64,000 bases of DNA from positions 28,908,001 through 28,972,000 of the forward strand of contig NC_135367.1 in the NCBI RefSeq assembly GCF_051622035.1, read 5' to 3'. This stretch comes from Arctopsyche grandis (taxonomy: Eukaryota; Arthropoda; Insecta; Trichoptera; Hydropsychidae). A program made the translations under genes and the position numbers. Every line of letters begins with the position of its first letter. Position 1 is the first letter of the stretch. Below the pieces are notes generated by a model that saw only the letters and a list, made by a program, of their open reading frames with translations, was not told the DNA's origin and ran no database searches. Positions 15,451-45,700 of the stretch are shown in pieces.

Positions 15451-15726
15451 GTCTCGTTTTGCGTACCAGTCCGAGTTGTTCTTTTCTACCATGTTGCTTA
15501 TTCTGTCTAGGCTACGTTGATAGTGAAGGTTGGTGGTCTGGACGATGTTGTTGTGCAGGCGTTGTGCTGATTGTGCTGGAGTTAGTTGTCTCGACAGCGG
15601 CTGTGTTGTGTTGGAGCTAGTTGGCTCAGTGGCGATTTGTTTCGCCGGTTGTGCTGGAGTGTGTTGACTCAACAGCGGGTTGTGTTGGTAGCTGGTCCAT
15701 ATGTACTTTCACACCATGTTACTGTT

Positions 15727-16026: not shown

Positions 16027-16106
16027 TGTAGGCGGGGTAATATGTATGCCTTAGGGAAAAATTTCGGCGAGTGCGAAAAGTATTTCAGTTGAACTTTCAA
16101 TGGTGT
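16027..16106. repeat. Thirteen-base LTR stub joined to a duplicate of the 13.2-kb flank
   Basis: 16027-16039 is the first 13 bases of an LTR (TGTAGGCGGGGTA). From 16040 the sequence matches 13218 onward exactly, 67 bases of the inverted-repeat element's flank ending in GTGT. The 5' LTR of the element is therefore cut off and the insertion site starts again. Confidence 0.8.
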
Positions 16107-17029
16107 TGTAGGCGGGGTACGATGTGTTGACCGTATCCCGGCCTAACGAAACACTGTTGTGTGGTTCAAAGATGGGGTCACCAATGTAGGCGGGGTAGCG
16201 ATGTGTTGACAGCGCTGTTGGATGATCAGAAGGTTGCGTAGATCACGTCGGATTAGTACCAATGTAGGCGGGTTACATGTGTGTTGACCGTATCCCGGCC
16301 TAACGAAACACTGTTGTGCTAGTTTTATAAAGTTTTATTGTTTGCCTATGGTTGTACAAAGGTATGGTATTTGTGGGCAAAAGTATGTCGTTCAGCGGTC
16401 TCTGGATATGGTGTCTGATATGAGTGTCGCTGGCTCAGCATTCAGCTATGTACGGAAGGTCTCTGGATACGGCAGTGTGTTGCTGGCTCGTCCGGCTGGT
16501 TGATCTTCCAAGTCCGCGTAGTGTAGTGGTGGCTGGTCAGGAGCTGTATGTTGACTGGTCTGCTGCTGTGTGTCGACGCTTGCTGCTGTGGGTCGACTGG
16601 TCTGGTGCTGTGTGTCGATGCTTGCTGTTGTGGGTCGACTGGCGTTGTTTGCGTTGTACCTCCTTTTATAGTGTTTCTGGAATGCTTGGTGGAAGTGGTT
16701 ATTGACGCGTACGAAAGGAATTTTGTTTTCGTCGAGGCGTCGAATTTTCTGGAATGCTTGATGGAAGTGGTTATTGACGCGTACGAGAGGAATTTTGTTT
16801 TCGTCGAGGCGTCGAATTTTCTGGAATGACTGGCGCCGTTCCGCTCGATGTGGTTTAATGGTGGCGGCGTGTTTCGACCGTTTTGGTTCCACTCGACTGG
16901 TAGGGGCGTTCCGCTTGAGTTTAATATAATGACTGCAGGTGTACGACGTCTGGTTTTCGGGAATGTAGTTTGTTGTTGCGGAATATTCTCGAAGGTTTCG
17001 ATGACGATGACGACGACGAGATTCCTACA
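16107..17029 (-). mobile_element. Solo LTR (minus) with intact target-site duplication
   Basis: The 923-bp LTR is flanked by GTGT at 16103-16106 and 17030-17033. Comparing with the undisturbed arm at about 10698-10715 (reverse complement AATGGTGTGTATATGG) shows that exactly four bases were duplicated. It is one visible base different from 13285-14207 (C/T near 16618). It sits inside the right arm of the inverted-repeat element. Confidence 0.88.
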
Positions 17030-18216: not shown

Positions 18217-18708
18217 TGTGGCGGCTCGCTTATACGACATGGTCGAGTTTGGTTGCCTTCCTGCGAGTGGGGACCAACCCGGCTGGGTTCGGAGAGCTAC
18301 TACTCACTCTGTCTTCAGCTGTCATATAATAAACACGTGCATTAACATGCCAGTCGTCTCATTCGTTCATCCTCCATACTGGTGACCCCCGACATCGAGC
18401 CACGCAGCCTCGATCAATTTCAACATGCCGCTCATCCCTGCCTCGCCGAGCCAGGCGGGAAGCTACCCACCGCGCCCCCATCGCCATCAACACGCGTCGC
18501 GGCCCGCGGGTGACAATAAACGAGCAGACACGGCTACCTACCTACCTACCTACCTACCGACGTCCAGCCACAACGTCGACGACAGGTGCTCTTAAAAAAT
18601 GGGGGAGCTAATGAGACGACGATCTTGACAGCTGGATGTGGAGTCATGCGCGATCCACTACACATAGAACGGTCATCCAGCACCACAAGACATACACCAC
18701 CTCAGCAC

Positions 18709-18752
<44 letters not shown>

Positions 18753-19334
18753 AGGCCCCGTCTGTCCCCACGAGCGTCGTCACGCCGAGACGGGCGGTAG
18801 CGCTACAACACCTCCACGAGCCACAACGACTCACAGTCCAGCTCGGAGTATCATCAACCACATCGATGCCCCTGCCGCCCCCGCCGCCCCACCAACCGAC
18901 ATCAGCCTCGGAAGAGCGGCGCCGCCGCAGCATCGCATCGCATCGGCGCGACCATCGGACCAGCCACCGTCCTGCTCGCGACGTCACCGCCCTCGAATCT
19001 ACTGACCATTCAGGGCGGTACACCTATGTACACAGCGGATGACCCACGTCAACATTTTTTTTTTTCTCCCCACGTAATAATTTTTTCTCTTTGTGTAACA
19101 ATATTTTTTTTTCTTTTGTAAAATTTGTTTCTTTGTAATTTTGGTATCGCTGATGCTGGGGGGGGGGAGTGATGTGGCGGCTCGCTTATACGACATGGTC
19201 GAGTTTGGTTGCCTTCCTGCGAGTGGGGACCAACCCGGCTGGGTTCGGAGAGCTACTACTCACTCTGTCTTCAGCTGTCATATAATAAACACGTGCATTA
19301 ACATGCCAGTCGTCTCATTCGTTCATCCTCCATA
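18217..19334 (+). mobile_element. TRIM: miniature LTR retrotransposon with identical LTRs
   Basis: The 162-bp LTRs at 18217-18378 and 19173-19334 are identical by eye. The target-site duplication is TCAT (18213-18216 and 19335-19338). The primer-binding site just after the 5' LTR reads TGGTGACCCCCGAC, close to the tRNA-Trp complement. A polypurine tract (GGGGGGGGGAGTGA) precedes the 3' LTR. The ~790-bp interior has a (CAT)n run at 18709-18751 and no gag-pol; the proline/histidine-rich frames in it are not credible genes. Identical LTRs mean a recent insertion. A second copy is at 39490-40571. Confidence 0.9.
18709..18751. repeat. (CAT)n microsatellite inside the TRIM
   Basis: About 14 CAT units occur here. 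The corresponding site of the second copy (about 39978-39995) has only about five, so the run expanded after the copies separated. Confidence 0.9.
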
Positions 19335-23076: not shown

Positions 23077-25812
23077 ATGGTGTCGGCTGCAGGAGTGATA
23101 GTGGGGGGCGACGGCGGGGGCGGATTGCCGACGGCGGGGGTCCTTCTGGAGCAACCGCTCACCACGGCTTACCTCAACCAGACCTCGCTGGGCCAGGGCA
23201 CTCTCTACATCACCGACAAGTCAGTCGCACAGACAGACACACCCCACCCACCCACCTACCCACTCGCCACTCGCCACTAAAACACTCCAAATTCAACTCA
23301 AACGCATCCAAATACCCGTCGAAGCCTGTTCGGATACTATGCTAGCGTTTCTGACACGACTCGTTCCAATCTCGACACGCATTTCGACGACAGAGCTTTT
23401 CCTATAATCGAGTTAAACTAACCTCAAAACCTCGTAGACATTTATTGCGTACAAAATTGAAAAATTCATAACGACTGTAGATTGGATATTGTTAGCTAGC
23501 CCTTTTTCAAGGATCAGGTCAGACATATATCGAATCATTTCAACCACATTTTGTTCTCATATAAGTAAACGATATTAAATAATTGCCCCTACGTATATTC
23601 CTTAATTGGTAAACGGACTACTAGTCATATGTGAACCGATCGCTCTAGATCGGTCACACGTGATCACCCGTCACACCTGAAAATTGGTCACGAAAAAACT
23701 GGTCACACCCAAATATTCGACCAATTTTTAATTTTTGGGTGTGACCAATTTTCGGATGTGACCAGTTATAGTGTGACCGATCTAGAGCGACGGGTTGTCC
23801 TGTGACCAGTTCACATTTGACTAGTAATCACCGAACCCCTTAATTATTCTACTACTTTTTCTATATGGAGAAAAATTCTCCACTTTAAAGATATATGTGA
23901 ATAAAAAACATTCGATCTTCAATGAAAATTTTAAATGAAAAAAGTTTAATTTGAACTGAAAAAGGTTTCATTTGAAATAATAATGGCGGAGGATCCATTT
24001 ACTTATATTGATGACCAAAATGAGCAATATAGCAAAGTATGAAAACGATCGGATTTTTTCGGAAACTTTTTACTGAATTGTAATCGTAAGTGAAACGTAA
24101 AGGAGGTTTGTAAAAAAGGGTTAACTTGTAATGAATAATGGTCAATTTGAAATGAATAAGGGTAAACATGTAATGAAAATGGGGCAATTTGGAATGAAGA
24201 ACCTATATATAAGAGCTACTCTTATCTGATAAGGAATACATGTCCAACTTTGTAATAAACATTATATCCTGTAAATATATGTATATGAATAAATAAATAA
24301 AAAAAAATATATATATATATAAGAAAAAAAGGCAAAAATTTAGCTCATAACACACTGACCCATGTATGATTATTATCATACTAGTAGTATGATTATTGTT
24401 ACTATTAATGATACTGTAGGACATGGGAAGGTGTGTTGACCATATCTCGGCCTATAGAAACACTATTGTGTTTGTAAGAGGATCGTTTCATTTATGTTCA
24501 GTTTATACAAGATTATTGTATGCACGAAGGAGCTAGTTGCTCAGCTTCGTAGAAGTGAGCTGGCTGAACTCCGGGGGTTCACTCTCGCGTCTGGAGCTGG
24601 TGCGTCAGTTTATGTATTGTAGTTCGATGCGTGCCATGTGCAGATGTCTTTGTCTTCATGTCACGTGTTGCCGCTGTATGATGACACATAATTCAAGTAC
24701 ACGTGCATGGTACTTGAATTAGTCGCAGTATTTCAGATACATCTAAATGTCGTTAATTTTGTATCCGAGTGATGACATCAGCGTCTGGACGTCGTTCGTT
24801 AACCGAGAGATAAAATCTTTCTTTTGGAATAGTCCAATGGGTCGTTGCCCTCGAGTAGCGAAGATAATTCCAGGCGAGATTAGTTCTGAATGTTTGTACA
24901 CGAATGATAGCATCACTGGCTTTGATTCGGAATAGCATAAACTGTACTACATTCCTACAATACTAATAATGAAATATTGTACATTTTCAGAGTATTGACA
25001 TGGTACGAGGATACCAAAAAACTAGGTTTTTCTTTGGAATACCCGAACATCTCACTGCATGCGATCCGACGTGAACCCATTCCGTCACTTTACATGATGA
25101 TAGATTGTAAATTAGAATTACCTGGTGAGTTCATATTATTCACATTCATTCAAACCCTATATTAAATCTACATACATAACTATTGTATATATATATTTGT
25201 AGAAGGATTAGCACCACCTGAACAATCGCCCGCTGAGAGAGACGACTCTGGCGAGGAATCTGATGAAAACCCAGATGAAGACCAACCACTCACGGAACTC
25301 ATGTTCGCCCCCACCGATCAAGACATGCTCTCCAACATGTTCTCAGCTATGAACGAGTGTCAAGCGTTGCATCCAGATCCCAACGATAGTTTTTCCGATG
25401 ACGGTATTTAATATATATATATTTATTTCTTTATTGTAAAACACAATTATGTACTTTCGAAATGTAATAATATTCCTTTTTATAGATGACGATATATATG
25501 AAGATGCTTCAGGAGTGGTGGACGATGAAGATATAGTACCTAATTTACAACAACCAATGGAGGTATATTCATAATCGACAGCATCATAATTTTATTATGT
25601 ATTTTTGCATTAAAATAATCTTTTATAGGCTGAAGGTCCCGTAGAAGATATGGAGACTGTCAATATAGATAATAATGGTCATCCTGCAAACAATGGTAAT
25701 TTTACTATTTATCTTATATGCATATGTATGTACATAAATATAATTGTCATTATTTGATGTTTGCTTTCCAGGTAATATGGAATATGACGCGGAGCAGTTT
25801 GCCGACGATTGA
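23077..25812 (+). CDS. icln: pICln, methylosome subunit and Sm-protein assembly chaperone
   Basis: Six exons, 23077-23219, 24991-25124, 25203-25403, 25486-25562, 25629-25695 and 25772-25812, join in frame to give 220 residues. The N-terminal half is the PH-like fold, with the family landmarks QGTLYIT and GFSLEYPNISLHA. The second half has acidic stretches and the conserved helix around MFSAMNECQALHPDP, and the C-terminus is acidic (EQFADD), as in relatives. Known role: cytosolic chaperone that holds Sm proteins in a ring intermediate and works with PRMT5 during snRNP assembly; the older chloride-channel name is historical. The N-terminal ~25 residues are glycine-rich. The start at 23077 follows a CAGTGAGGG and (GAA)n leader and is the only ATG that fits. 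Intron 1 (1.77 kb) hosts a solo LTR and a foldback element; the other introns are under 90 bases. A polyadenylation signal is at 26105-26110. Confidence 0.95.
23611..23832. mobile_element. Foldback MITE in icln intron 1
   Basis: The left half (ACTAGTCATATGTGAAC, CGCTCTAGATCGGTCACAC, GAAAATTGGTCAC) reappears in reverse complement in the right half, with GACTAGTAATCACCG at the far end. It forms a hairpin of about 220 bases with an AT-rich centre. No clear target duplication could be read. Confidence 0.65.
24415..24959 (-). mobile_element. Solo LTR in icln intron 1
   Basis: The 545-bp LTR begins TGTAGGACATGG and ends ATTCCTACA, with target-site duplication ATAC at 24411-24414 and 24960-24963. 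It carries a diverged family phrase (GTTGACCATATCTCGGCCTA). It ends 31 bases before exon 2, close to the branch-point and acceptor region. Confidence 0.82.
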
Positions 25813-27025: not shown

Positions 27026-30000
27026 TCAATCCCTGAAGAAGGATGATGGCATTTCGTGGCTTTGACCATAAATCATCTTCACTGTCGTATTATCATAAGC
27101 TGAAATTTCTTTCAACAAACGACAGCGCATAGCTACGGTCTCCGTATGATCACGATCGACATACATCGGTATCAGACCCAAAACCAAAATCATAAACGGC
27201 CTGGTCTTATTCTCGTTCAGCAGCAGTTGTTTAATGAAATGGAGTCTACAGTTTTGATGCTGGTTGAGAATTTCAGACAACACGTCCGAAAAAAGCGCCA
27301 ACACCTCGCTGCCGTACGTATCGATGAAAAATTCAAACAGTCGCACAACACTCCCTGCAAACTTCTGTAAGAATGCAATCATCTCCGGACTGTCAACAAT
27401 CTGCTGGTCGTCTAGTGGCTTTTCCAAAAACTCCATGAAAGACATGACAAGCAAATAGTGCAACATTAGATCAGGAATGGCTCCGAACGGAAGCACCGAC
27501 TTTATCATCTCATACAAGCTTTTCAAAAGAACCAACGGATTGACCGTAAATTTACACCGCAACGCCTCCGTACAGAAAGCCTTCAGGAAATTCTTAATAC
27601 TCGCTCTGTATTTATAGTTAGTTTCATGGAGAGTGTCCCAGTGCTGGTTAATGTACGATGCGGTGATGGTGCAAAATTCCGTCACGTGTTTACTTTGAGT
27701 CTCCGGCGACTTTGCCAGTAGCAAATAGGATACGCAGAAATTCGACAGGGCACCGACGACTGATTTACTGGTCTGGTCTATCAAATTCAAATACTCCTTG
27801 ATGAGGATCTCGCAGAATTCTTCGCTCATATGTTCCATGTTTCTTGATATGGCGTATACTAGATTTGCTTGAAAGTTGTCAACGTCAAGCTTTAGCTTCT
27901 CGAGTACTTTTAGGACGTTCCAAGACATTTGACAATAATCCGACAAGAATTGATGTTTAATGGAGTCGATTTCGTACAAATAATGAAACAGATTCTTGTC
28001 GCATTCTTTAAAGCTTTCGTAAAAGTTTTTCAGCATATTAAATGCGATCGAACACATTTCTAAATCCATTTCTTTTGTGAATATCTTGTATGTACGTTGA
28101 CATAATACGTCCCGAATTGAGCTGTTCTTTTCAATTTTCCACATTTCATCAAAAATAGACAAAACTTCACGTTTTGGCAGCAAAAAATGAGATAGTCTAA
28201 TCGAATGCTTCTTGATTGAAACGGGCTTCTTAGCTAATTCTTTGACAAAAGCACACGTTTCAGCTCCGGACTTTCTGTAGCATAACGACAACATGGAAGG
28301 TAGCCCAAATTTTAAATAATCTTCTTTGATAAATAATGAAACAGTTTCAAAAGATATTGGTGGATTAACATATTTGAATTTCTGTATAAGCTCTTGCGTT
28401 CGCTTATATTCAACCTGACCTTCCTGTGACATCACTATCTTCGTCATAGATGGCACGTAATCCTTCAAAAATTCATCGTAATTATCAAGTAACAGCGACA
28501 GGTTTATAATCAAGCCTGCGAATTTATCAGACCGTTCAGTCTCATAATTGGCAATATCCCTCTCCAAACGTTCTTTGATAGTGCGTCCTAAAGAGTCGTT
28601 CATGTACGCTCGAATTCGACGATAATCCCTGATATAACTGTGAATCCCGTATGTAGTAGAGGTGTGTTCCATCACTGTATCAATATTGTCAAAAATTACT
28701 TTGGAGTTGTGAGTTAGGGCATTTCTGAAAATGTGCTCGTTGAAAACGTGTTTGAATATGTCTTCAATAAACATCGCTTTGGTTTCGGCGTGATTGGATA
28801 AGATTCTCAAAATGCGATGGTAGCGTTTTTCGTCTGATGTTTTGGACCACAATTTAACCACCTCCAAAAGCCAAGGATGATCGTTTATAGATCTGACGGT
28901 GATACCTTTATCGTTCGTCTTTAGATACGAGTTGAGGACCAGTTCAATTTTTGTCACAAGCTCATCAGTCATCGGTTGATTCAATATTAACAACTTGTAC
29001 CTTTCCATGAATACATTCAGTATTTTGGTTTCCAACTCGGGATGTTTGGTGAGTAAGTTTAATTTATTCAAATTGTATTCCATCATCAAATCAATCACGG
29101 ATTCATATTCGATATTATTGATTATTCTGTAATGAATCGATTCTTCCAATATGGTTGCGAGGAAATATTGACGGTGATACTTTTTGATTTCACCGTTGAA
29201 CATTATGACTTTCATCATTTCGTCAATGACCTCCCAATGCTCTGCCGATAGTGTATGTAAAGGGAACGTCGTCTGAAGATGTTCGACGAACCGGTATCGT
29301 AAGTGTTCTTGATCGTTCCTGTGCCGTTTAGCGACATACTTCAAAACATTAAGCAAGGCAACAGTATCGTTGTGTGCTTTGCAGCAATCAATCATCGAGG
29401 TTAATAATTTAATCCTCTTGTCGATGTTCGGAGTACTGTTATTAAGTTCTATAAGACGTTTAATTGCAAAATCTATGTTCATATACTTCAAATACCTCTC
29501 CTCTTGTTCTCCCTTACGCGACATCATCTTTTTCGCCCATTCTTCTCTCTGGCCTGCCGGTAAATATATAATAAAATTCTCGGGAAAATAATGAGTATCG
29601 AGTATGTTTTCATTTTTGTATACTTTCTTATATAATTTAATCAAATAATTACATGCATACTCGGGTTTGAAATGCTTGAATATATACTCTAGCGAGTATC
29701 TGTAGTTAAAGTTTTTGCTATCGGGGGGGAACGTATTTATTATGAACTGATCACGCTCTTCGCCTTTGAGCACTTTCATCAATGCTTCACGATTCAACGA
29801 TCGGCTAATTTTGTCTGCATTTTCGATTACCAACTGCTTATCGCATTCTAATAAGATTAAAGTTAATCTGTATCCGAAATTGATACGCGTCGGAAAATTT
29901 CCTTTCAATTTGAAAATTTCAACGAGTTCGCCGATGTAATCTCTAGCAATGAGTTCGCAAACTGAGCTGTATTCAATAGAAAGATATTTATTGCAGTCGA

Positions 30001-30577
30001 CTTGAAAAAAATTTTTTACATATTCCACTATCAATTTTGGATATTTGTTGTAAAGTTTTTTCATCTGACACTCTGGTATTTTCAAATTATCCGCGTTTAG
30101 TTGACCTTTAATGAACGCTTCAGAACAGACAGACAACAGCTTTACTGCTATCGTATTATTGTATTCTTCAGAAATTTTTACATAAAACTTTTCAGCCAAT
30201 TCCGTATCTTTCAAGTGAATTCCCAAATTTGTGATTAGTTTGCATCTTGTTACATACGATACATGTGGAATGAGTTCAGAAAAGAAGTAATCAGGATTTA
30301 CTATGTCCTTGTTGATGGTTCCTTCGAAGAACCACTTACATCTAAGTGCCTTTCTGATAACAATTTCATCTTCCGATTTGAGGAGGTTGCATACTATAGA
30401 TGAGTTTTTGAAACGATCTGCCAGTGCTGCCAAAAATATCTGATCCAATTGAGATTTTGTCGATAGAGAAGCGATATAGTCGGGTGTGAACTCTTCAGCG
30501 GTGACCTTCGCTACGAGTTGATTGAGGTTTCTATGCCGCTCCTTCATACAATCACCTTTCAACGATTTTTCAATCAT
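27026..30577 (-). CDS. Unknown large helical protein, paralogue 1
   Basis: I do not recognise this family. A single uninterrupted coding exon gives 1,183 residues from the ATG at 30577. A splice acceptor (GTGTTTCAG) sits four bases upstream of that ATG, and a matching donor (GTATGA at 30851) implies a 5'-UTR intron of about 270 bases. No signal peptide or clear membrane segment is visible. The protein is rich in leucine, lysine and glutamate, with regularly spaced short amphipathic helices; a HEAT/ARM-like solenoid is inferred from composition only. The best-conserved blocks relative to paralogue 2 are the first ~75 residues, the CCKAHNDTVALLNVLKYVAK region, and RIRAYMND plus the following ~60 residues. 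The length and the codon-level conservation with its neighbour show that it is a real gene. It has no catalytic motif that I can name. Confidence 0.85.
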   Translation of the reverse strand: MIEKSLKGDCMKERHRNLNQLVAKVTAEEFTPDYIASLSTKSQLDQIFLAALADRFKNSSIVCNLLKSEDEIVIRKALRCKWFFEGTINKDIVNPDYFFSELIPHVSYVTRCKLITNLGIHLKDTELAEKFYVKISEEYNNTIAVKLLSVCSEAFIKGQLNADNLKIPECQMKKLYNKYPKLIVEYVKNFFQVDCNKYLSIEYSSVCELIARDYIGELVEIFKLKGNFPTRINFGYRLTLILLECDKQLVIENADKISRSLNREALMKVLKGEERDQFIINTFPPDSKNFNYRYSLEYIFKHFKPEYACNYLIKLYKKVYKNENILDTHYFPENFIIYLPAGQREEWAKKMMSRKGEQEERYLKYMNIDFAIKRLIELNNSTPNIDKRIKLLTSMIDCCKAHNDTVALLNVLKYVAKRHRNDQEHLRYRFVEHLQTTFPLHTLSAEHWEVIDEMMKVIMFNGEIKKYHRQYFLATILEESIHYRIINNIEYESVIDLMMEYNLNKLNLLTKHPELETKILNVFMERYKLLILNQPMTDELVTKIELVLNSYLKTNDKGITVRSINDHPWLLEVVKLWSKTSDEKRYHRILRILSNHAETKAMFIEDIFKHVFNEHIFRNALTHNSKVIFDNIDTVMEHTSTTYGIHSYIRDYRRIRAYMNDSLGRTIKERLERDIANYETERSDKFAGLIINLSLLLDNYDEFLKDYVPSMTKIVMSQEGQVEYKRTQELIQKFKYVNPPISFETVSLFIKEDYLKFGLPSMLSLCYRKSGAETCAFVKELAKKPVSIKKHSIRLSHFLLPKREVLSIFDEMWKIEKNSSIRDVLCQRTYKIFTKEMDLEMCSIAFNMLKNFYESFKECDKNLFHYLYEIDSIKHQFLSDYCQMSWNVLKVLEKLKLDVDNFQANLVYAISRNMEHMSEEFCEILIKEYLNLIDQTSKSVVGALSNFCVSYLLLAKSPETQSKHVTEFCTITASYINQHWDTLHETNYKYRASIKNFLKAFCTEALRCKFTVNPLVLLKSLYEMIKSVLPFGAIPDLMLHYLLVMSFMEFLEKPLDDQQIVDSPEMIAFLQKFAGSVVRLFEFFIDTYGSEVLALFSDVLSEILNQHQNCRLHFIKQLLLNENKTRPFMILVLGLIPMYVDRDHTETVAMRCRLLKEISAYDNTTVKMIYGQSHEMPSSFFRD

Positions 30578-31090
30578 TCTTCTGAAACACAATTGTTATC
30601 AGCGATTATAATAAAATAGATTACATATAAAAAAAATCATATTATCTTGGATAACAAGATTCGATGCTGATAGTACGTGACATGTACAATATATATTTTT
30701 CATTAAATGTTCTTTCGAAAGTATCTCAAAATGTATCTAAAGCAGTAAAGTATATAAAAACATCAGTTAGAAAATATGGAATGCTTTTATTCAAACATAA
30801 TCTAGGACCAAAATCTGACTTCTCATAAACATAACTAGTGATGAGTCATACTTGTGCAATATAATTAAATATGGTAATAGAACTGGGAAAATAACACACA
30901 TACATACCTATGTTTACGAAAAAGTATCCTAAAAGTATGAAGTTACTGAATTCACAGAAAAAAGCCTTGTAATAAAAAAAATAGAGATGTTCCAAGAGAA
31001 CTAACGCTTTGCCGGTCTGCGCAGACTAACTTTGACAAATGATGTCATGAACAGGTGTACCACTAATTGCATGCCGGGAAAAAACTGAAA
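30578..31090 (-). other. 5'-UTR intron and putative promoter of paralogue 1
   Basis: The acceptor ends at 30582 and the donor GTATGACTCATC begins at 30851; the same donor phrase occurs upstream of paralogue 2. A non-coding first exon probably ends at 30852 and starts below about 31050, where TTTGACAAATGATGTCAT (31031-31048) resembles the upstream site of paralogue 2. Confidence 0.5.
31031..31047 (-). promoter_or_regulatory. TTTGACA...TGTCA site upstream of paralogue 1
   Basis: Two inverted half-sites, TTTGACA and TGTCA, lie about 180 bases upstream of the inferred 5'-UTR donor. They are conserved in position and order at paralogue 2 (38951-38971). Confidence 0.4.
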
Positions 31091-32224
31091 TTGAAATCAG
31101 ATTATTATCACTTGATTTCGAGAATAGATATTTATTGCTGCTATGAAATGTAAAAAAATAATAGCTTGTCATTTTTAATCTTTTCAAACAAGTAGAACAC
31201 AATAGTGTAAATATGCAGTCGTTTTCTTATAGACACTTATTTTCGTTGGTTTTGACAATGTTTTAATAATAAAATTATGAGATTTTTATGTGCTTTGATC
31301 TTTTTCTTAAATTTTTTAAACTAAAAATTGTGTTTAGACCAGGACATTTTTTCTATAAACGTATTTCTAAATACCTCAGTTATTTAAAACGAAGATTAAT
31401 GAATCATGGACGCGCATTTATGAAAAAATGAAATCATTTCATGTGTTTCAACATTCAATTTCGTTATTTCGAAGTAAAAAATCATTCGATTGGTGTATTT
31501 GTTCCTGATAAATGGAAAAAACTTTTGTAGGAGATATCATGTTCGCCGAAGCCTTTGTATATTTATCCATCTATTAGATAAAAAAAAGTGTACTGATTTT
31601 AGGACAGGACAGATACTCAAAAAACCAGTACTGTCCTGGTAAAATCAGTACGAATGGTCATCTTAGTTTAGAGTTTAGATCCAAAAAATGTAACGTGGAC
31701 CAAGTTCATTGGAATTGTTTAACGTAAATCAAATAAATGCACTTGTATTCATTTTTGAGAAATGAAAAGTAAACTTTGGATTAGGTTCTATTATTTTTAT
31801 TTAATTTCAAATCTGTACATAATTTTTGAAATGTAAACTTCTACTTATAAATAAAGATAGGCGTTTGATGAATGCATTCGAAACATTTACCAACGTAGTT
31901 TACACCGATTTGCCACAGCACACTTACCAACTGTACCTTTTCCTTTAGTATTTATAAAGCCCATTAATTTCAACAAACGTGTGATTTTGGTGGATGCAAT
32001 ATTTACTTTAGTATTGTTAGTTGGATATACTTTTCAGAGGATGGTTCTGAGAATTTTATTTATCTTAGTTTCAAAATATCTTTAGATCAGCACACAATAT
32101 TTTATAGCGTACTGGATTATTATAAGGGCCTTGTGCTACCTTTTTAAATATAAAAATCTTCAAAATATTACAGATAGAATAATCTAAATGAAATTATACC
32201 GATTCAATTTGTGTTGGTGAAACT
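31091..32224. other. Intergenic, AT-rich
   Basis: I see no gene or strong repeat here. The sequence is AT-rich with runs of poly-A and poly-T. Confidence 0.4.
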
Positions 32225-32530
32225 GTGCCCTCTGGGCAACTGCACGAACGTGGATGGACATTTGGTAATGTCAATTTTGACAGATCGAATTCGTTGTCTC
32301 ATGATTGGGGACGAGTTTTTCAGACCACTGATGTTAATGCATTTTATGATTCACATTGTATATTATGTTTTCTGAAAAAACTTTCATCTGATAATACAAG
32401 ATCTTCTCCAAAATGGTTTAATACAAATGTCATAAACATAATTGATCGGAAACATTATTTTCTTAAGCTATGGAAGAGGTATCGAAACTTTGTTGATTTT
32501 GGTATTTTTTGCAACCTGCGCACAACTTGA
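32225..32530 (+). pseudogene. Fragment of a non-LTR retrotransposon
   Basis: The 101-codon frame has the layout of the linker between endonuclease and reverse transcriptase in LINEs (W..VFQTTDVNAFYD, then PKWFNTNVINIIDRKHYF.KLWKRYRN). Only this piece remains. The clade (Jockey/CR1-like) is a guess. Confidence 0.5.
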
Positions 32531-32799
32531 TAAGATGGCGTCAAGTTTCTGACAGCATCCCGTCACTGTTGTATTTTTATATTGACAATTGTGAAAAAAA
32601 GATGTATATAAATAAAAAAATATATGTAAAACCGAAAGAAGTATTCTATTGTTTTACCCGTTGGGTTTAAATGACTGGTCCAAGAAAGCAGAAACAAGTA
32701 AAATTACAGTAAATACATTCTTTCATATCAGACTATCGATGAATTTTTCTCCAAACACCTTTGTAACTGAATGTCAAAAAGAATTCTTTCCACAGAACC

Positions 32800-33322
32800 T
32801 AATAGAAAAAAAATACACGAGTTCAATCTGCAAAATTTCAAATCCTTCGTAGTAACTGGAAACAGGTTTTCAAGAGCTCCAGCTCAGTTGAGAAACAATT
32901 GAAGGATCTGAAAGATTTTTCTAGTAATATCTTTATTAAAATATGTAATCACACATGTGGAATTTTACATTAAATATAAATTTCGTTTCAAATTATTAAA
33001 CTCTGCCTTAATTATAAATATTACATATAAACTTGTTTGAAACTATATACTTATTATTGCTCCAAATTCAAAAAAATTGTAGACGCAAAGGCAAGTTAAG
33101 TTGGATTAGGTTATAAGTTAATATATAAATTTGTTCTAACATTTTGTAAAACCATATTTTGGCACCATCCGGTGAAACTTATCAATATTTGAGTAAATAA
33201 ATAATGTATAATGTAATATGTAAAAATGTACATAAATCACAAACATATGCAGAAATGTGAATTCAACTTCAATAAAAAGCAAAAAAACATAAAGAAATGC
33301 CATTATAATGGTGTAAAAAAAT
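32800..33322 (-). repeat. Duplicated 3' flank of the unknown gene
   Basis: From about 32800 the sequence matches about 34110-34680, the 3' flank of paralogue 2: ACGAGTTCAATCTGC / GAGTGCAATCTGC, TTTTTCTAGTAA, and ATTGCTCCAAATTCAAAAAAATTGTAGACGC. It shows that the C-terminal pseudogene was copied together with its downstream flank, as a unit of about 1.3 kb. Confidence 0.75.
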
Positions 33323-34095
33323 TCAATTTCTGCCAAAGGACAATACTGTATCATAGTTTTGACGGTACATCATCTTCACTGTTATATCATCATGGGATGA
33401 AATTTCCTTTAATAAAATATCAAACATAGCCGCAGTTTCAGCATCGTCACGATAAACGTAAGTCGGCATTAAATTCAAAACTAAAATCATAAATGGTCTA
33501 GTTTTATTCTCGGTCAGCATCATTTGCTTGATGAAATAAAGATTGAGTTCAATATTTCTTCCGTGGTGGTCGAGAACTTCGGCCAGTATGGTCGAAAAGA
33601 GCCCCAACACCTCACTGCCATACGTACTAATGAAAAATTCAAACAGTCGCACCACACCACCTGCAAACTTCTGCAAGAATTCTATGGTCTCGGGACAGTT
33701 TACGACAAGTTTATCTTCGAACGGCTTCTCCAAAGACTCCACGTAAGACATAACGAGCAAATAATGCAACATGATATCAGGAATTGCTTCAAACGGAAGC
33801 ACAGATTTTATCATTTCATACAAGCTTTTCAAAAGAACCAACGGATTCACTGTAAATTTGCATCGCACTGCCTCCTTACAAAAAGCTTTCAAGGAATTCT
33901 TAATACTCGCTCGGTATTTAAACTGAGTTTCGTGGTCGGTATTCCAGTGTTGCTTTATGATGTGGTGATGGTGCAAAATTCCGCCACATGCTTACTTTGA
34001 GCCTCCAGCGACTTTGCCTGTAGCAAATAGGATACATAAAAAATCTAAAGAGGACCTATGACCAATCTATTAGTCTGGTCCATTAAAAATAACTC
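33323..34095 (-). pseudogene. C-terminal fragment of the unknown family, broken copy
   Basis: The open part (33323 to about 33960) matches the last ~205 residues of paralogue 2 closely. Farther upstream, homology continues to about 34095 but is broken by a 4-base deletion near 33957 (ACATC-ATAAAGC against GCATCGTACATAAAGC) and by a TCG-to-TAG stop near 34050. There is no N-terminal portion. The fragment stands directly downstream of paralogue 2 in tandem, so unequal duplication of the gene's 3' end is the likely origin. Confidence 0.85.
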
Positions 34096-34687
34096 TTCAT
34101 GCGACACCTGATGGAAAAAATCACACGAGTGCAATCTGCAAAATTTCAAATCCTTGTATGTAGTAACAAGTCATCAAGCTCAATTGAGAGACGATTGAAG
34201 GATAAGGAGAATATTATAAAATAAACAACGATTTTTCTAGTAACATATGTTTATTAAAAATATGTGATCACACAAATGAAATTGTGCATTAATTATAAAT
34301 TTCTTTTCAAATGATTTAACTATAAATAGGTATATATAAAATTTCTTGTTTGAAACCATTATTTTTTTTATTGCTCCAAATTCAAAAAAATTGTAGACGC
34401 TAAAGCAAGGCAAATTTAATAAGGTTAATACAGAATGCTACAGCAAAATCTAGCACTTGTTTTTTTAACTCTTCTAATACCTATATTTTTAATATAATCG
34501 AATTATAATATCCACCGTAATCCAATTTAAGGCACCATCCGTGAAACTTAACAATGTACATAAAAAATATATATTTTGTAAGCTTAAGCAAAAATGTGAA
34601 TTCAACTTCGATAAAAAGCAGAAAATACCTAAAATACATTATAAAAAATAAATGCCATTATAATTAATTATAATACTGTAAAATCAT

Positions 34688-37600
34688 TCAATTTATGAAA
34701 AAAGACAATGCTGTTTCATAGTTCTGACCGTACACCATCTTCACCGTCATATCATCATGGGACGAAATTTCCTTTAACAGAATATCATAAATAGCTGCAG
34801 TTTCTGCATCGTTACGATCGATTTGAGTTGGCATCAGACCCAAAACCAAAATCATAAATGATCTAGTTTTATTCTCGGTCAGCATCATTTGCTTGATGAA
34901 ATAAAGATTAAGCTTAATATTCCTTCCGTGATGGTCAAGAACTTCGGCCAGTATAGTCGAAAAGAGCCCCAACACCTCGCTGCCATATGTACTAATGAAA
35001 AATTCAAACAGTCTCACCACCCCACCTGCAAACTTCTGCAGGAATTCAATGGTCTCCGGACAGTTTACGACAAGCTTATCTTCGAACGGCTTCTCCAAAG
35101 ACTCCACGAAAGACATAACGAGCAAATAATGCAACATTATATCAGGAATGACTTCAAACGGCAGCACCGATTTAATCATCTCATGCAAACTTTTCAAAAG
35201 AGCCAACGGATTCACCGTAAATTTACATCTCACTGCCACCGTACAGAAAGCCTTCAAGAAATTCCTAATACTCGTTCTGTATTTAAACTGAGTTTCGTGG
35301 ACGGTATTCCAGTGTTGCTTTATGTACGATGCGGTGATGGTGCAAAATTCCGCCACATGCTTACTTTGAGCCTCCAGCGATTTTGCCTGTAGCAAATAGA
35401 ATACGCAAAAAGTCGAAAGAGCACCGACGACAGATTTATCAGTCTGGTCCATCAAATTCAAATATTCCTTGGTGAGAATCTCGCACAATTCTTCGCTCAT
35501 ATGTTCTATGTTTCTAGATATGCCATATACTAAATTACTTTGCATGAAATCAACGTCAAGTATTCGCTTCTCCAGTGACTTCAAAGTATTCCAAGAGACT
35601 TGGCAGTAATCCGACAAAAACTGAGGTTTTACGGAATCAACTGCATGCAAGTAATGGAAGAGATTTTTATCGCATTCTTGAAAGCTTTCGTAAAAGATTT
35701 TCAGCATGTCAAATGCGACAGAACACATCTCTAGATTCGTCTCTTTTGTGAAAATCTTGAATGTACGTTGACATAATACATCCCTAATTGAGCTGTTCTT
35801 TTCAATTTTCCACATTTCTTCAAATATAGACAAAACTTCACGCTTTGGGAGCAAAAAATGCGATAATCGAATTGAATGCTTCTTGACTGAAACGGGCTTC
35901 CTAGCTAATTCTTTCACAAAAGCACACGTTTCAATTCCAGACTTTCTATAGCACAACGACAACAGGGAAGGTAGCCCAAATTTGAAATAGTCTTCCTTGA
36001 CAAATATTAAAACAGTTTCAAAAGATATGGGTGGATTAACATATTTAAATGTCTCTATCAGCTCTTGCGTTCTCTTATATTCAACCTGACCCTCGTCTGA
36101 CAGTACTATCTTCGCCATTGATGGTACATAATCCTTTAAATATTCGTCGTAATTATCAAGTAGCAGCGACAGGTTTATAATCAAGCCTGCGAATTTATCT
36201 GACCGTTCCGTCTCATAATTGGCAATATCCCTCTCCAAACGTTCTTTGATAGTGCGTCCTAAAGTATCGTTCATGTATGCTCGAATTCGACGATATTCCC
36301 TGATATAATTTTGAATCCCATGTGTAATAGGGGTGTATTCCATCACTGTATCAATATTGTCAAAAATCACTTTGGAGTTGTGAGTTAAAGCATTTCTGAA
36401 AATGTGCTGGTCGAAAGCGTATTTGAATATATCTTCTATAAACATTGCTTTCGTTTCGGCGTGACTGGATAAAATTCTCAAAATGTAATGGAAACGTTTA
36501 TTCTTCGACGTTTCCGACCATAATTTAACTACCTCCAAAAGCCAAGGATGATCGTTTATAGATCTGACGGTGTTACTTTTATCATTCTTCTTTAGATAAG
36601 ATTCGAGGACTAGTTCAATTTTTAACACAACATCATCAGTCATTGGTTGATTCAATATTAAGAACTTATACTTTTCCATGAATACATTCAGTATTCTAGT
36701 TTCCAACTCGGGATTGTCGGTGAGTAAGTTCAATTTATTTAAATTATATTCCATCATCACATCGATCACAGATTCAAATTCGATATTGTTGATTATTCTG
36801 TAATGAATCGATTGTTCCAAAATGGTTGCGAGGAAATATTGACGGTGATACTTTTTGATTTCATCGTTGAACATTATGACTTTCATCATTTCGTCAATGA
36901 CTTCCCAATGCTCTGTCGATAGTGTATGTAAAGGGAATGTCGTCTGAAGATGATCGACGAACCGGTATCGTAAGTTTTCTTGATCATTCCTGTGCCGTTT
37001 AGCGACATACTTCAAAACATTAAGCAGAGCAACAGTATCGTTGTGTGCTTTGCAGCAATCAATCATCGAGGTTAATAGTGTAATCCTCTTGTCGATGTTC
37101 GGAGTACTGTTATTAAGTTCTATGAAACGTTTAATAGCAAAATCTGTATTCATATACTTCAAATATCTCTCCTCTTGTTCTTTTTTGCGAGATATCATCT
37201 TCTTCGCCCATTCTTCTTTTAAGTCTACCGGTAAATGTATGACAAATTTCTCCGGGAAATCTTCAGTATCAAGAATGCTTTCATTTTTGTATGCTTTCTT
37301 GTATAATTTAATCAAATAACTGCACGCATACTCTGGTTTGAAATGCTTGAAAATATACTCTAATCCATATTTGTACTGTAATGTATCTCTCTTGGAAGGG
37401 AAAACATTTATTATGAATTGATCGCGCTCTTCGCCTTTCAGGACTTTAAGTAACGCTTCGATATTCAACGATCGGCTAATTTTCTCTGCATTTTCGATTA
37501 CCAATTTCTTATCGCATTCCAATAAAATCAATGTCAATCTATATCCAAAGTTGAAGCTTGTCGGAAAATATCCCCTGGATTTGAAGATTTCGACAATTTC

Positions 37601-38248
37601 GGCAATGTAATCTCTAGCGATGAGTTCAAAAACTGAACCATAATCGACGGGAAGAAAACTCTGGGAATCAGCCCGGAAAATTGTTTTTACATATTCTACA
37701 ATCAATTTTGGGTATTTGCGGTAAAGTTGCTTCAATTGATTCTCTGGGATATCTAAATTATTCACGCATAGTTGAGTTTTAATGAACTCTTCAGAACAAA
37801 CGGACAACAGCTTAACTGCTATCGTATTGCTGTATTCTTCAGAAATCCTGACATAAAACCTCTCGGCCAATTCCGTATCTTTCAAATGAATTCCCAAATT
37901 TGTGATTATTTTACATCTTGTAGCATACGTTACATATGGAATAAGTTCAGTGAAGAAGTAATCAGGATTTACTATGTCCTTGTTGATGGTTCCTTCGAAG
38001 AACCACTTACATCTAAGAATCTTACTGACAACAATTTCATCTTCCGATTTGAGGAGGTTGCATACTATAGATGAATTTTTGAAACGATCTGCCAGTGCTG
38101 CCAAAAATATCTGATCCAATTGAGATTTCGTCGATAGAGAAGCGATATAGTCGGGTGTGAACTCTTCAGCGGTGACCTTCGCTATGAGTTGATTGAGGTT
38201 TCTATGCCGCTCCTTCATACAATCACCTTTCAACAATTTTTCAATCAT
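34688..38248 (-). CDS. Unknown large helical protein, paralogue 2
   Basis: A single uninterrupted exon gives 1,186 residues from the ATG at 38248. It is a paralogue of the protein at 27026-30577, collinear over its whole length with only a few small indels (for example HGRNIKLN against Q-NCRLH near the C-terminus). As in paralogue 1, a GTGTTTCAG acceptor lies four bases before the ATG and a GTATGACTCATC donor occurs upstream (38803), so both carry the same 5'-UTR intron. No domain, signal peptide or membrane segment is recognised; a helical repeat fold is inferred from composition. Residues about 158-238 differ strongly between paralogues (about two-thirds identity by eye), while the first 74 differ at only about two positions. 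Both copies keep full-length frames, so both appear to be under coding constraint. Confidence 0.85.
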   Translation of the reverse strand: MIEKLLKGDCMKERHRNLNQLIAKVTAEEFTPDYIASLSTKSQLDQIFLAALADRFKNSSIVCNLLKSEDEIVVSKILRCKWFFEGTINKDIVNPDYFFTELIPYVTYATRCKIITNLGIHLKDTELAERFYVRISEEYSNTIAVKLLSVCSEEFIKTQLCVNNLDIPENQLKQLYRKYPKLIVEYVKTIFRADSQSFLPVDYGSVFELIARDYIAEIVEIFKSRGYFPTSFNFGYRLTLILLECDKKLVIENAEKISRSLNIEALLKVLKGEERDQFIINVFPSKRDTLQYKYGLEYIFKHFKPEYACSYLIKLYKKAYKNESILDTEDFPEKFVIHLPVDLKEEWAKKMISRKKEQEERYLKYMNTDFAIKRFIELNNSTPNIDKRITLLTSMIDCCKAHNDTVALLNVLKYVAKRHRNDQENLRYRFVDHLQTTFPLHTLSTEHWEVIDEMMKVIMFNDEIKKYHRQYFLATILEQSIHYRIINNIEFESVIDVMMEYNLNKLNLLTDNPELETRILNVFMEKYKFLILNQPMTDDVVLKIELVLESYLKKNDKSNTVRSINDHPWLLEVVKLWSETSKNKRFHYILRILSSHAETKAMFIEDIFKYAFDQHIFRNALTHNSKVIFDNIDTVMEYTPITHGIQNYIREYRRIRAYMNDTLGRTIKERLERDIANYETERSDKFAGLIINLSLLLDNYDEYLKDYVPSMAKIVLSDEGQVEYKRTQELIETFKYVNPPISFETVLIFVKEDYFKFGLPSLLSLCYRKSGIETCAFVKELARKPVSVKKHSIRLSHFLLPKREVLSIFEEMWKIEKNSSIRDVLCQRTFKIFTKETNLEMCSVAFDMLKIFYESFQECDKNLFHYLHAVDSVKPQFLSDYCQVSWNTLKSLEKRILDVDFMQSNLVYGISRNIEHMSEELCEILTKEYLNLMDQTDKSVVGALSTFCVFYLLQAKSLEAQSKHVAEFCTITASYIKQHWNTVHETQFKYRTSIRNFLKAFCTVAVRCKFTVNPLALLKSLHEMIKSVLPFEVIPDIMLHYLLVMSFVESLEKPFEDKLVVNCPETIEFLQKFAGGVVRLFEFFISTYGSEVLGLFSTILAEVLDHHGRNIKLNLYFIKQMMLTENKTRSFMILVLGLMPTQIDRNDAETAAIYDILLKEISSHDDMTVKMVYGQNYETALSFFIN

Positions 38249-39239
38249 AGTTCTGAAACACAATTATTATACAATAAATTATATAATTAAACATCAGGTT
38301 TTGAAATTATCTTTAATTTTATACAACTATCAACTGATAGTCGGAATGTATATATTTTATATATGTATATATTTTATATTCAAAATTCAGATTACCTAAA
38401 CACAACCTGCTTTAGATCGTCGACTTTAGAGAGTCTTTAATTAATATTAGGTATTAGATGTATTATGAGCATTTGTAAGAATTGTAAATAGGTTTTTGAG
38501 CTCTATTTCCTATTATGCTTACATTAACATTAGAATAATATAATACTATGATTACTAACAAAATTAAATTAAAATTGTAAAATAGAAAATGATCAGTAGA
38601 TCAGTAACTATTAAAATAGATATAAGATGTATTGTCAACATAATTTAGTCACAATAAAAAACATTTAAAAATCAATTTTTTTTCAAAAGTAGCGAAAAAT
38701 CTGAGCATTACTACAAAATGCTAACATGATTAATTTATGAACTGTCAAATCAAGTTTACAATATATATTTGACCTGTCATTATTTTTTGACGATGAGTCA
38801 TACCTGTGCAATAATTGAATATATGTAGCAGACAAAACTTGGATAAGAACAAAGTGTAAAAAAGTGTTAGAGTATTGTATTTACAGAATAATAGAGATTT
38901 TCCAGAGTATAGATGATTTCACCGGCCGGCACAAACTAAAACAGCTTGACTTTGACAAATGACTGCTGTCATGCAGGGCTGCCACAACAAACGTGTCAAC
39001 CACTAAAGGGTAACAATTGTTTGGAGAAATACTGTGTACAGTCGTTTAAAATTACAAAATAAACCCTGCTACCTTCTTAAGTACAAAGTATGCCCTCAAT
39101 GACACTCTTCTTTATTCATATTTAACAAAAATATATTAATCACCTTAAATATATACATTACCTCATATTAAGCATTTCATTAGATGATAAACCAGTAGAA
39201 GTAATAAATAATTATTTATATTTCTTCTTCTTGTTAATA
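38249..39239 (-). other. 5'-UTR intron and upstream region of paralogue 2
   Basis: The inferred intron is 38803-38253 (551 bases). The probable first exon lies between 38804 and about 38940. Beyond 39000 the sequence is AT-rich with no gene seen. Confidence 0.5.
38951..38971 (-). promoter_or_regulatory. TTTGACA...CTGTCA site upstream of paralogue 2
   Basis: TTTGACA at 38951-38957 and CTGTCA at 38966-38971 are oriented as inverted half-sites, matching the arrangement upstream of paralogue 1. A further CTGTCAAA lies near 38742, inside the inferred intron. Confidence 0.4.
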
Positions 39240-40770
39240 CTATAGGGCGGGTTAAAGGTTTGGACCGTTCCCCGGCCTATGAAAATTCAGTTGTATTTTG
39301 AAGAGGATCTTTATTACTCGATTAATACAGGTGTATTTGTATGTACAGCGAAGTAGGTAGGGGATTCGCTGGAACGAGCCAGGTCGAGTTCCTGAAGCTC
39401 ACTGGCATCTGAGGACGATGCGCTGGTTTATAAAGTTGTTGCTTGAGTAACGTGTAGCTGGGCTGGTGAGATCGCGTTCTGGAAGATTCTGTGGCGGCTC
39501 GCTATACGACATGGTCGAGTTTGGTCACCTTCCTGCGAGTGGGAATCAACTCGGCTGGGTTCGGAGAGCGGCTACTCACTCTGCCTTCAGCTGTCATAAA
39601 TAAAACACGTGCAATAACATGCCAGTTGTCTCATTCGGTCATCCCCCATAACTGGTGACCCCCGACATCGAGCCACGCAGCCTCGATTAATTCAGCATGC
39701 CGCTGCTCATCCCTGCCTCGCCGAGCCAGGCGGGAAAGCTACCCGCCGCGCTGCCATCGCCATCGACACAGCACGTCGCGGCCCGCGGGTGACAATAAAC
39801 GAGCAGACACGGCTACCTACCTACCTACCGACTGGAGTCCAGCCACAACGTCGATGACAGGTGCTTAAAAAATGGGGGAGCGAATGAGACGACGATCTTG
39901 ACAGCTGGATGTGGAGTCATGCGCGATCCAGTACACATAGAACGGTCATCCAGCACCACCAAGACATACACCACCTCAGCACCATCATCATCATCAAGGC
40001 CCCGTCCGTCCCCACGAGCGTCGTCACGCCGAGACGGGCGGCAGCGCTACAACACCTCCACGAGCCACAACGACTCACGGTCCAGCTCGGAGTATCATCA
40101 ACCACATCGATGCCCCTGCCGCCCCCGCCGCCCCACCAACCGATATCAGCCTCGGAAGAGCGGCGCCGGCGCAGCATCGCATCGGCGCGACTATCGGACG
40201 AGCCACCGTCCTGCTCGCGACGTCACCGCCCTCGAATGTACCGACCATTCAGGGCGGTACACCTACACAGCGGATGTCCCACGTCAACAATTTTTTTTCT
40301 CCTCACTCAACATTTTTTTTCTCTTTCTTTGTGTAACAATAATTGTTTTCCTTTTGTAAAATTTGTTTCTTTTGTAATTTTTGTATCGCTGATGCTGGGG
40401 GGGGGAGTGATGTGGCGGCTCGCTATACGACATGGTCGAGTTTGGTCACTTTCCTGCGAGTGGGAACCAACTCGGCTGGGTTCGGAGAGCGGCTACTCAC
40501 TCTGCCTTCAGCTGCCATAAATAAAACACGTGCATTAACATGCCAGTCGTCTCATTCGGTCATCCCCCATAATTCCAACGGGGTCGAGGTCTTCCTTTGT
40601 GTTCTATGTTTGATGCTTAGTTGCGTAGCTTCTTGGGTTTCCCCATGTACTAGTGATTGCATATCTGGAGCGAGTCGAATCGCCTTTATGAGTAAGTTGG
40701 ACGAAGTATTTCGGCCACTGCTGACTTTCGTGTACGAGAACAGGACGCGATGGTGTCATTTGTACAGATT
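39240..40770 (-). mobile_element. Old LTR-like sequence hosting the second TRIM
   Basis: The left part (39240-39489) carries a diverged LTR-family phrase (GGACCGTTCCCCGGCCTATG, GAAGAGGATC) as in the solo LTRs at 22.1 and 24.4 kb. The sequence resumes after the TRIM at 40576 and ends near 40770. I could not confirm its target duplication, so its edges are approximate. Confidence 0.45.
39490..40571 (+). mobile_element. TRIM, second copy
   Basis: LTRs of 161 bp at 39490-39650 and 40411-40571 differ at about five positions. The target-site duplication ATTC is at 39486-39489 and 40572-40575. The primer-binding site TGGTGACCCCCGAC is at 39653, and the polypurine tract is just before 40411. The interior matches the copy at 18217-19334 but has a shorter (CAT)n run. 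The LTR divergence makes it the older of the two. Proline-rich frames across it are not genes. Confidence 0.9.
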
Positions 40771-42726: not shown

Positions 42727-45700
42727 TTAATCTTTATTTTCCAACAATGCCATCAAATTTTCATAACGACTCGCAGAAAGATTTTGTTGTCTTCCCAATT
42801 GACTTTCAATTGCTTCAATTTTGAACAAAAGCTCATTGCTGAAACATTAAATTTAATCAGTCATCAATTTCACCTAAAACATAAATATGTATGTACACAC
42901 CGCACAGTTTGAAATACCTGTTTTCAAAATACTTCGTTTCCATTTCTGGTGTAAGAAAATACTTATTACTCAAATACCATATTTTCTCTTCTTTTAATTG
43001 TGAGACATACTAAAATTAAAAATTTTATATAATAAAAATTTGAAATAATAACAAAAATAAGCTTCTTCCTGTAAATTTACCATTTGATACGTTTCTTGTA
43101 ATCTATTTTGCCTTGCAATCTGCATCTTTTTAAAATCTTCAATACATGATAACTTTGCAGACTCATTCAAAGTATCAATACCATCTTGTACTAAATAAGG
43201 TGTTCCAGGCCACATTCCAGATTCACTCATTTCTCTCTCAAACATTTGTTTCTCTTGTGTTTCCTTTTATTTTATTAATATTAAAATTAATAATATTTTA
43301 CTGACTATTATAAAAATGCATTATATTAATTATTGTAACCTTTTTATTTAAGCTATCTTTAGCTTTTTCATTCCTTTCCGTGTTGAACAAAGGGACCGAA
43401 AGTGAAGGACTATCCAATTCTTCGAGACGATTAGCTAAATATGATTTCAATTTGTTTTCGAATTTCACCACGTGTGTTTCAGTCTTTAGCATATCATCTC
43501 TACATTTGCAAAGCAATTCGTACAACTCTAATTCGTTAAGAGTCTTCGCATCCGAGTTTACCTGATAATGTTTTATTCGTTTACTATTAAGCTAACAACA
43601 TTGAACATTTACACATTTAATAATTTGTAACCTCATAAATTTGAATTGAATCAGGATTATACTTTAAAAACTCTCCCATATCAGTCACATATGGTATATT
43701 AAAGGTCTTGGTGGATTTTAAAAACGAATTATCTCCATAATGATAAACCAATTTAACTTTACTCTCATTTATAATGAAATGCTTCTCACACACGTCTTCC
43801 AATGCAGAAATATTAGTGTTTCGTTCGAATGTTTCAAGCACAGACTAAAAATAAATTAAAAAACATTTGGAATAATTATATAAGTATTTACTTAATAAAA
43901 CTGTTACTTACTTGCAATCCACCACCAGAATTTACGTCATATTTTATTTCTCGCAAACATAACCTTAAAATTTAGTTTAATTATGAATCGTTAATATTTT
44001 CATTATAATACGAAACTATATCATTATTAATATAACCTGTCCGATCTATCATTATAATATTCGGTAATTGAAGAAGGAGATGTTACAACTTTTAGCAAAT
44101 TATCAGGATGAGACTCTTGGAAGAATTCTATAATTCTATTCGTTTTTAAAGTATCCGTGTTGTCATTTATTTCATACTGATGTACTGTAATTAATTACAA
44201 AATAATATATTATATCATATTGTATCATAAACGATCAGCTAAAGATAAATAATCAAATCAAACATTTCAGATAATCTTCTCTTCCCCTTTTGAATACTTC
44301 AGTTACGAAATTTGTAGTTTGATCGAATAATCTCTTCATTAAATAATCAGAACGGTGTTCATACCATTCATACCTGTCATAAAAAAAAATTAAACAATTT
44401 CATCATGTATGTATATAATATAATAGAAACATTATACAAATTAGTTGAGCACCAATTTAGCGGAATGGTATAATCGTAATCTTCATATTCGACTAATTTT
44501 TTGATCAAACCATCACTTCTCGAATACGGTGCATGTTTTTCTAAAATGGCCTTTTTGTACTGAATAGTTTTTTTTCCGCTTGGATATCTTTGTTCAAAAT
44601 CTACTTCAACAAAAAAACATTTGTATGTACGTATTTTATAAACTAAATAGATTTTCACAGTTACCCACCTGATATTGATATATCTAACTTTTCTACCCAA
44701 CTCGAGGGCATGTCGAGATGTTTTTCTGCTACATAATTTTCTGCTGCTTCTTCTGATAGTTCTATCGGCTCTTCGCAAAGTAGACGCTCCCAATAATCAG
44801 GATTGGTTAAAACAAAATTTGTAGGACTTTTCAAATTTGCCAAATTTACCTATAATTTATTTTATATTAAAAACGAATTTTAAAAGCGCCTTTTTGAGAT
44901 ATAAACACTATATTTACAAACTATTGCGTATGGCTAGAAGGGTGTTTCCATCGATTATTTTATCTTTCCAGACATTAAAGATACGATTTGATATATTCAT
45001 ACAGTACGATAACCTTTACTAGCTTCCTAGAGATTGCAAAACCATATGGATATAAAAATCACTGAGCTTTAGTTGATCAATATTTCAATATTTTCATACA
45101 AACATTAAGTAGTGAAATGCAATTCGAGATCATATCGAAACAACCTAAACTGCGTTTGGTAAAAGATCAACCAAAGTTATGATCAACCAAAGAACTAAGA
45201 TCAACCAAAGAACAAAGTTATGATCAAAGTTATGAACAAAGTTATGGAAAAAGTTATGAACAAAGTTATGAATAAAGTTATGAACAAAGTTATGATCAAC
45301 CAAAGAACAATGTTATGATCAACCAAAGTTTGTTATAATCAACCAAAGAACTGTTGCAAAAGTTTTTTTTTTGTAATAAAGCTATGACATTTGGTAAAGA
45401 ATTTCTACGAGCAATAAATCGTCACGATAAGTTGTACCAGTTGGGAGATGAAGCACATTGTCTGTGGGCCGTATAAATAAGTGGCAAGCAAGCATACTTA
45501 CATTGCATTACATATTATATATGTATGTACATATGTTCCTATACATAAAAATCTCTATGAGGCCCTTTTCAAAGAAAAGCTGAAGCTTCCGCGAACGAGT
45601 TCTATAATTTTAATTTTAATTATGAATAGATTTTCAACAAACTTCATCGAAATTTTATAAATTTCTTATACAAACTCACATATATTAAAATATTCATCAA

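Follow-up and report, generated by a model that had tools for sequence, protein, structure and literature searches.

A small tandem cluster of genes for large, probably alpha-solenoid proteins in Arctopsyche grandis

Introduction

Alpha-solenoids of the HEAT/ARM type usually serve as scaffolds or adaptors that bind a partner, either a protein or a nucleic acid, on their concave face. Karyopherins, the Integrator subunit INTS4, Pds5 and MMS19 are described members of this class. The two large proteins encoded at the locus studied here resemble such scaffolds in size range, in their all-helical models and in the lack of a membrane span, and the structural matches obtained for the full model and for residues 1-259 belong mostly to that class. 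Neither protein has a detectable sequence relation to the described scaffolds, and no internal repeats were found by a profile comparison of low power. The organisation of the locus is like that of tandem birth-and-death clusters with gene conversion in general, with two live copies, a decayed copy between them and 5' coding ends that are alike. It is unusual among such clusters only in that a large protein is encoded by one coding exon. On balance, we favour the reading that one host gene family forms a small birth-and-death cluster in tandem and that its products are probably alpha-solenoid scaffold proteins.

Gene organisation and reading frames

The window, that is the whole 64-kb stretch of DNA that was analysed, is located near one end of a 29.5-Mb contig, at a distance of about 0.55-0.62 Mb. 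It contains two intact genes:

27026..30577, minus strand: gene 1, one coding exon for 1183 aa, predicted helical-solenoid-like protein
34688..38248, minus strand: gene 2, one coding exon for 1186 aa, with 81% identity to gene 1

The ATG of gene 1 starts at 30577 and its stop codon ends at 27026, the ATG of gene 2 starts at 38248 and its stop codon ends at 34688, and the spacing between the genes is about 4.1 kb. The original prediction of two intact minus-strand genes about 4 kb apart, encoding full-length collinear proteins from one huge coding exon each, was borne out, as both open reading frames are present. The proteins are collinear end to end, with one 3-codon indel as the sole gap, and the differences between the genes are distributed over codon positions 1, 2 and 3 as 145/100/283. 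Collinearity, 81% identity, this distribution, the single 3-codon indel and a dN/dS of 0.21 together argue that two reading frames of about 1190 codons did not arise by chance. Judged from the sequence, genes 1 and 2 are maintained coding genes.

Selection and silent-site divergence

Comparison of gene 1 with gene 2 gave a dS of 0.49 and a dN of 0.10, which corresponds to the ratio of 0.21. Within windows of at most 100 codons the ratio ranged from 0.09 to 0.45, with none above 0.45, and the most divergent window was formed by the last 86 codons (dN 0.28). These values indicate that purifying selection acts on the pair. A fast-evolving role, as first suggested, finds no support in the same ratios, and the elevated dN/dS expected of a fast-evolving germline or immune family was absent between gene 1 and gene 2. 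It is therefore unlikely in our view that the genes encode lineage-restricted, fast-evolving germline or immune proteins, although the tandem turnover with one lost copy, the divergent last 86 codons and the lack of any family above threshold in the libraries used would fit such a role.

Silent divergence is distributed unevenly along the pair. Fourfold sites differ at 1 of 33 positions in codons 1-100 versus 79 of 261 beyond, the dS of codons 1-100 is 0.067, and among the first 75 codons 6 are changed where 27 would be expected. A 75-codon window as low as the observed one was found in none of 1000 random placements. For windows of 30 fourfold sites, 34 of 2000 shuffles reached the observed minimum, the longest stretch without a changed codon was no more than mildly unusual (P 0.034, 5000 randomisations), and a second stretch of low divergence is located near codons 383-570. 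The near-absence of silent change in the first 100 codons suggests that gene conversion probably homogenises the N-terminal 75-100 codons of genes 1 and 2. Uneven constraint on silent sites might also produce low 5' silent divergence; we rank conversion as the likelier cause.

The third copy and copy number

A third copy, which went unmentioned in the original prediction, is located between genes 1 and 2:

33323..34087, minus strand: copy 3, a broken 3' remnant of about the last 255-270 codons, with stops in its 5' piece and a broken frame
32808..33322, minus strand: sequence 3' of copy 3, which aligns with 34115-34687, the 3' flank of gene 2

The upper end of copy 3 is 34087 by blastn, and its 5' piece aligns only with one internal TAG and one internal TAA. 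Gene 2 is its nearest copy, with 87% identity over 211 aa and, over the same 211 codons, a dS of 0.40 and a dN of 0.06. When gene 1 is used as the outgroup, the branch of copy 3 receives 20 silent and 14 replacement changes (over approximately 130 silent and 503 replacement sites) and that of gene 2 receives 16 and 13; these counts omit part of the changed positions at which gene 1 has a gap or is unlike both other copies. From the 20 silent against 14 replacement changes on its branch, copy 3 seems to have been under constraint for most of its history and to have decayed late. Copy 3 with its 3' flank forms one blastn alignment with gene 2 and its flank (78.6% over 1373 columns). Because the coding match of copy 3 ends at 34087 and the flank of gene 2 starts at 34115, we infer that copy 3 lost its 5' part by deletion; the join to the gene 2 flank is inexact, since tblastn pieces extend to 34107 and 34134.

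In the organism's own 475.7-Mb genome no further copies were found among the best-scoring candidates. A translated search scored 5 candidates and gave 4 matches at E ≤ 0.001, a second search scored 21 candidates and gave 4 matches at E ≤ 10, and a search with the N-terminal 249 aa scored 4 candidates and gave 2 matches at E ≤ 10, all of them in the cluster; only the best candidates were scored in these searches, and exons were seen separately.

Upstream region and duplication mechanism

The upstream regions of both genes contain the following putative features:

30852..31042, minus strand: putative 5' exon of gene 1, start drawn at the common TCATTTGTCAAAG block
38804..38962, minus strand: putative 5' exon of gene 2, start drawn at the common TCATTTGTCAAAG block
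30582..30851, minus strand: putative 5'-UTR intron of gene 1, GTATGACTCATC...CAG, 270 bp
38253..38803, minus strand: putative 5'-UTR intron of gene 2, 551 bp

The splice-like motifs that had been described, an acceptor four bases before the ATG and a common donor start, are correct to the base in both genes. An AG stands four bases 5' of each ATG (AAGA-ATG and AACT-ATG), and GTATGACTCATC follows directly after 30852 in gene 1 and after 38804 in gene 2. The donor-side block common to both genes comprises 20 bases with 1 mismatch, which was equalled in 1 of 200 Markov-1 simulated pairs, and is also found by blastn (33 bp, 88%, E 8e-5). Further upstream, the 13-base block TCATTTGTCAAAG is collinear in both genes, from 31042 and 38962. 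This block is weightless alone, because a 13-base match of some kind turned up for 22 of 200 simulated pairs and, in the real pair, a second such match is present within the putative intron. Conservation on the acceptor side is not independent evidence for an intron either, since it adjoins the homogenised coding end. A search of the organism's own genome with 38780-39060, which covers the putative 5' exon of gene 2, returned that region alone. Taken together, a 5'-UTR intron in both genes is a plausible prediction.

The donor block contains ATGACTCAT, which we take to be a bZIP site of the GCN4/AP-1 type, and thus may act as a splice donor, as a promoter site or in both roles. A possible reading, to which we give real but lesser weight, is that a bZIP/AP-1-like promoter site accounts for the conserved 5' block and that neither a splice donor nor a 5'-UTR intron exists. 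The only two exact ATGACTCAT sites in the window are those in the donor blocks (30841-30849 and 38793-38801), conservation of the block continues past donor position +6, and the two genes show little conservation over most of the putative intron. However, CAG-GTATGA and CAA-GTATGA are acceptable splice donors, a CAG acceptor is placed four bases 5' of each ATG, and the upstream TCATTTGTCAAAG block, for the little that it adds, is collinear in both genes.

Non-coding sequence is common to the copies, namely the 5' blocks to genes 1 and 2 and the 3' flank to gene 2 and copy 3. For the tandem step, the earlier claim of duplication at the DNA level therefore holds and retrocopying as the origin of the pair was rejected. 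The claim does not reach further back: the ancestor may have been retroposed before the tandem duplication, which would agree with a common 5'-UTR intron.

Genomic surroundings

A plus-strand icln-like gene, convergent with gene 1, matches Pfam Voldacs at 24992-25126 (E 1.1e-9) and 25205-25408 (E 5.8e-12); for its first exon, placed by eye at 23079-23221, no Pfam match was obtained. Upstream of the cluster a DRC7-like gene is encoded on the minus strand (44380-44796, E 2.2e-12), with a second segment at 43301-43591 that is under its cut-off (E 8e-5). An exon at 5474-6157 matches DUF3522 (E 5.4e-52) and is presumably related to TMEM8/PGAP6.

Several repeats were observed in the window. Two elements of about 1.1 kb at 39490-40572 and 18217-19334 are mutually 89% alike and are each bounded by 162-bp direct repeats, which are 97% alike in the former and 100% in the latter; they may be LTR-like or other repeat-bounded elements. 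A 990-bp direct repeat at 13218-14207 and 16040-17029 is 99.9% identical and has inverted relatives at 8911-9739 (about 81%). The stretch 14483-15454 is a tandem repeat with units of about 85 bp, according to the self-comparison offset, and has very strong GC and AT skew.

Elsewhere in the genome, a 42.7-Mb contig (C1) carries at about 36.084 Mb an open COI frame in the invertebrate code (1468-3006 of the extracted piece L009), beside which ND2-like and COII-like frames were read by eye. These frames could reflect a recent transfer of mitochondrial DNA to the nucleus or a join made in assembly. Among the matches listed, a TTAGG array starts near the end of the same contig at about 42.661 Mb; a 30-base TTAGG pattern had 46,861 overlapping matches genome-wide on both strands. 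The array and the invertebrate code of the COI frame both point to an insect or another arthropod, while a search for chorion families carried no information, as it drew a blank in the control genomes too.

Protein family searches

Profile searches of both proteins agree with the original prediction that they belong to no assignable family: in Pfam, NCBIfam, PHROGs, PADLOC and PDB sequences no family was above threshold for either protein, and NCBIfam and PADLOC returned zero rows. Sub-threshold Pfam rows, all short of the curated cut-offs, were HRXXH, PhoU and DUF1722 for the gene 1 protein and ULD_2 and DUF1722 for the gene 2 protein (E 0.01-0.38 across both). The DUF1722 row is located at residues 411-476 in both proteins. 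As the proteins are 81% alike, this shared position is not independent, and membership in DUF1722 was taken as chance. Two PHROGs rows, for the gene 2 protein only (E 0.043 and 0.062), and an unrelated PDB row for the gene 1 protein (E 0.62) were likewise taken as chance; the gene 2 protein and the two-protein profile gave no match in PDB sequences at E up to 10. No Pfam row for HEAT or ARM repeats was obtained for either protein at E up to 1, and none for the importin/exportin family at the same limit. Divergent HEAT repeats are often missed by Pfam. Internal repeats were not found by hhalign in 105 window pairs, a comparison of low power with a 2-sequence profile (best probability 2%). A literature search found nothing bearing on the protein family, from which we claim no absence from print.

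Relatives outside the genome were sought with two short peptide patterns, which reach close relatives only. One or the other pattern was fitted by 56 stretches in bacteria and archaea and by 270 in viral contigs, and 0 were confirmed in either set; tblastn found no phage relatives at E up to 1. Capture of the genes from a virus or another mobile element, which a single long coding exon, the lack of a family and the repeat-bounded element nearby (39490-40572) might suggest, is thus opposed by the lack of a viral-contig relative with these two patterns and of a phage relative. No dispersed copies were found in the organism's own genome, purifying selection acts on the pair, and the BFVD gave no row at E ≤ 0.001 for residues 1-259 (best 0.23). 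We consider such a capture highly improbable.

Predicted fold

Both proteins have a mass of about 139 kDa, show no membrane span by hydropathy and match no recognised catalytic family. In the gene 2 protein no 19-residue window exceeds 1.6, and the hydrophobic moment is above that of shuffled sequences at 100 degrees (z 4.0) and at 80 degrees (z 3.1). The full AlphaFold2 model is all helix without strand at low confidence (pLDDT 42.7), and the model of residues 1-259, also of low confidence (pLDDT 59.1), has no strand. In Foldseek, 12 of the 13 rows at E ≤ 0.001 for the full model were large helical-repeat proteins or pre-ribosome chains, and the remaining one was an IP3 receptor; TM-scores over the 50 rows listed were 0.04-0.21. 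Residues 1-259 gave no Foldseek row at E ≤ 0.001 (best 0.29, mixed list). In VIA-align, rows for the same residues were mostly importin-alpha, CRM1, Integrator, AP2 and designed repeat proteins, and the best one (7bfp_C, Z 9.2, rmsd 6.0, 221 aligned) falls below the Z of about 13 under which helical-repeat matches may mean only a common arrangement. The structural comparison, which had been proposed as a check on the lack of a family, did not point to a single known family; it did reveal a general resemblance of the low-confidence models to HEAT/ARM solenoids. Most likely, the fold consists of paired helices in a HEAT/ARM-like alpha-solenoid.

Tandem-duplicated, divergent transport receptors of the karyopherin-beta/exportin type are a narrower and improbable version of this fold assignment. 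The length of the proteins is near that of karyopherins, the models are all helix, IPO5/RanBP5, CRM1 and TNPO3 are among the 13 Foldseek rows, importin-13 is at rank 15 for the full model, and importin-alpha and CRM1 appear in VIA-align for residues 1-259. However, the TM-scores of the karyopherin rows are just 0.11-0.21, and the Foldseek rows for the full model also include pre-ribosome chains, Pds5, MMS19, Integrator, the mTOR complex and the ryanodine receptor. The sequence searches likewise gave neither an importin-family row in Pfam nor, apart from the unrelated row for the gene 1 protein, a match in the PDB.

Conclusions

For the cluster that we favour, we propose that an ancestral host gene was duplicated in tandem and left two full-length survivors, while a third copy would have lost its 5' part. 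Gene conversion would keep the N-terminal 75-100 codons of the survivors alike, and both copies would have been retained by selection and probably also by conversion. The alpha-solenoid product might act as a scaffold or adaptor, a role suggested by its fold class. The genes look real and selectively maintained, and together they look like an ordinary small tandem cluster and not like a strange new system. With little confidence, we also speculate that they represent a giant single-exon alpha-solenoid family that is confined to one arthropod lineage and has no ancestor in a known family, with a converting tandem pair kept because two doses or two specialised partners would be required. As a tandem cluster, the locus is of an ordinary kind. 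If the family is real and lineage-restricted, it would add one more large, strongly constrained protein of unknown role that deserves a name.
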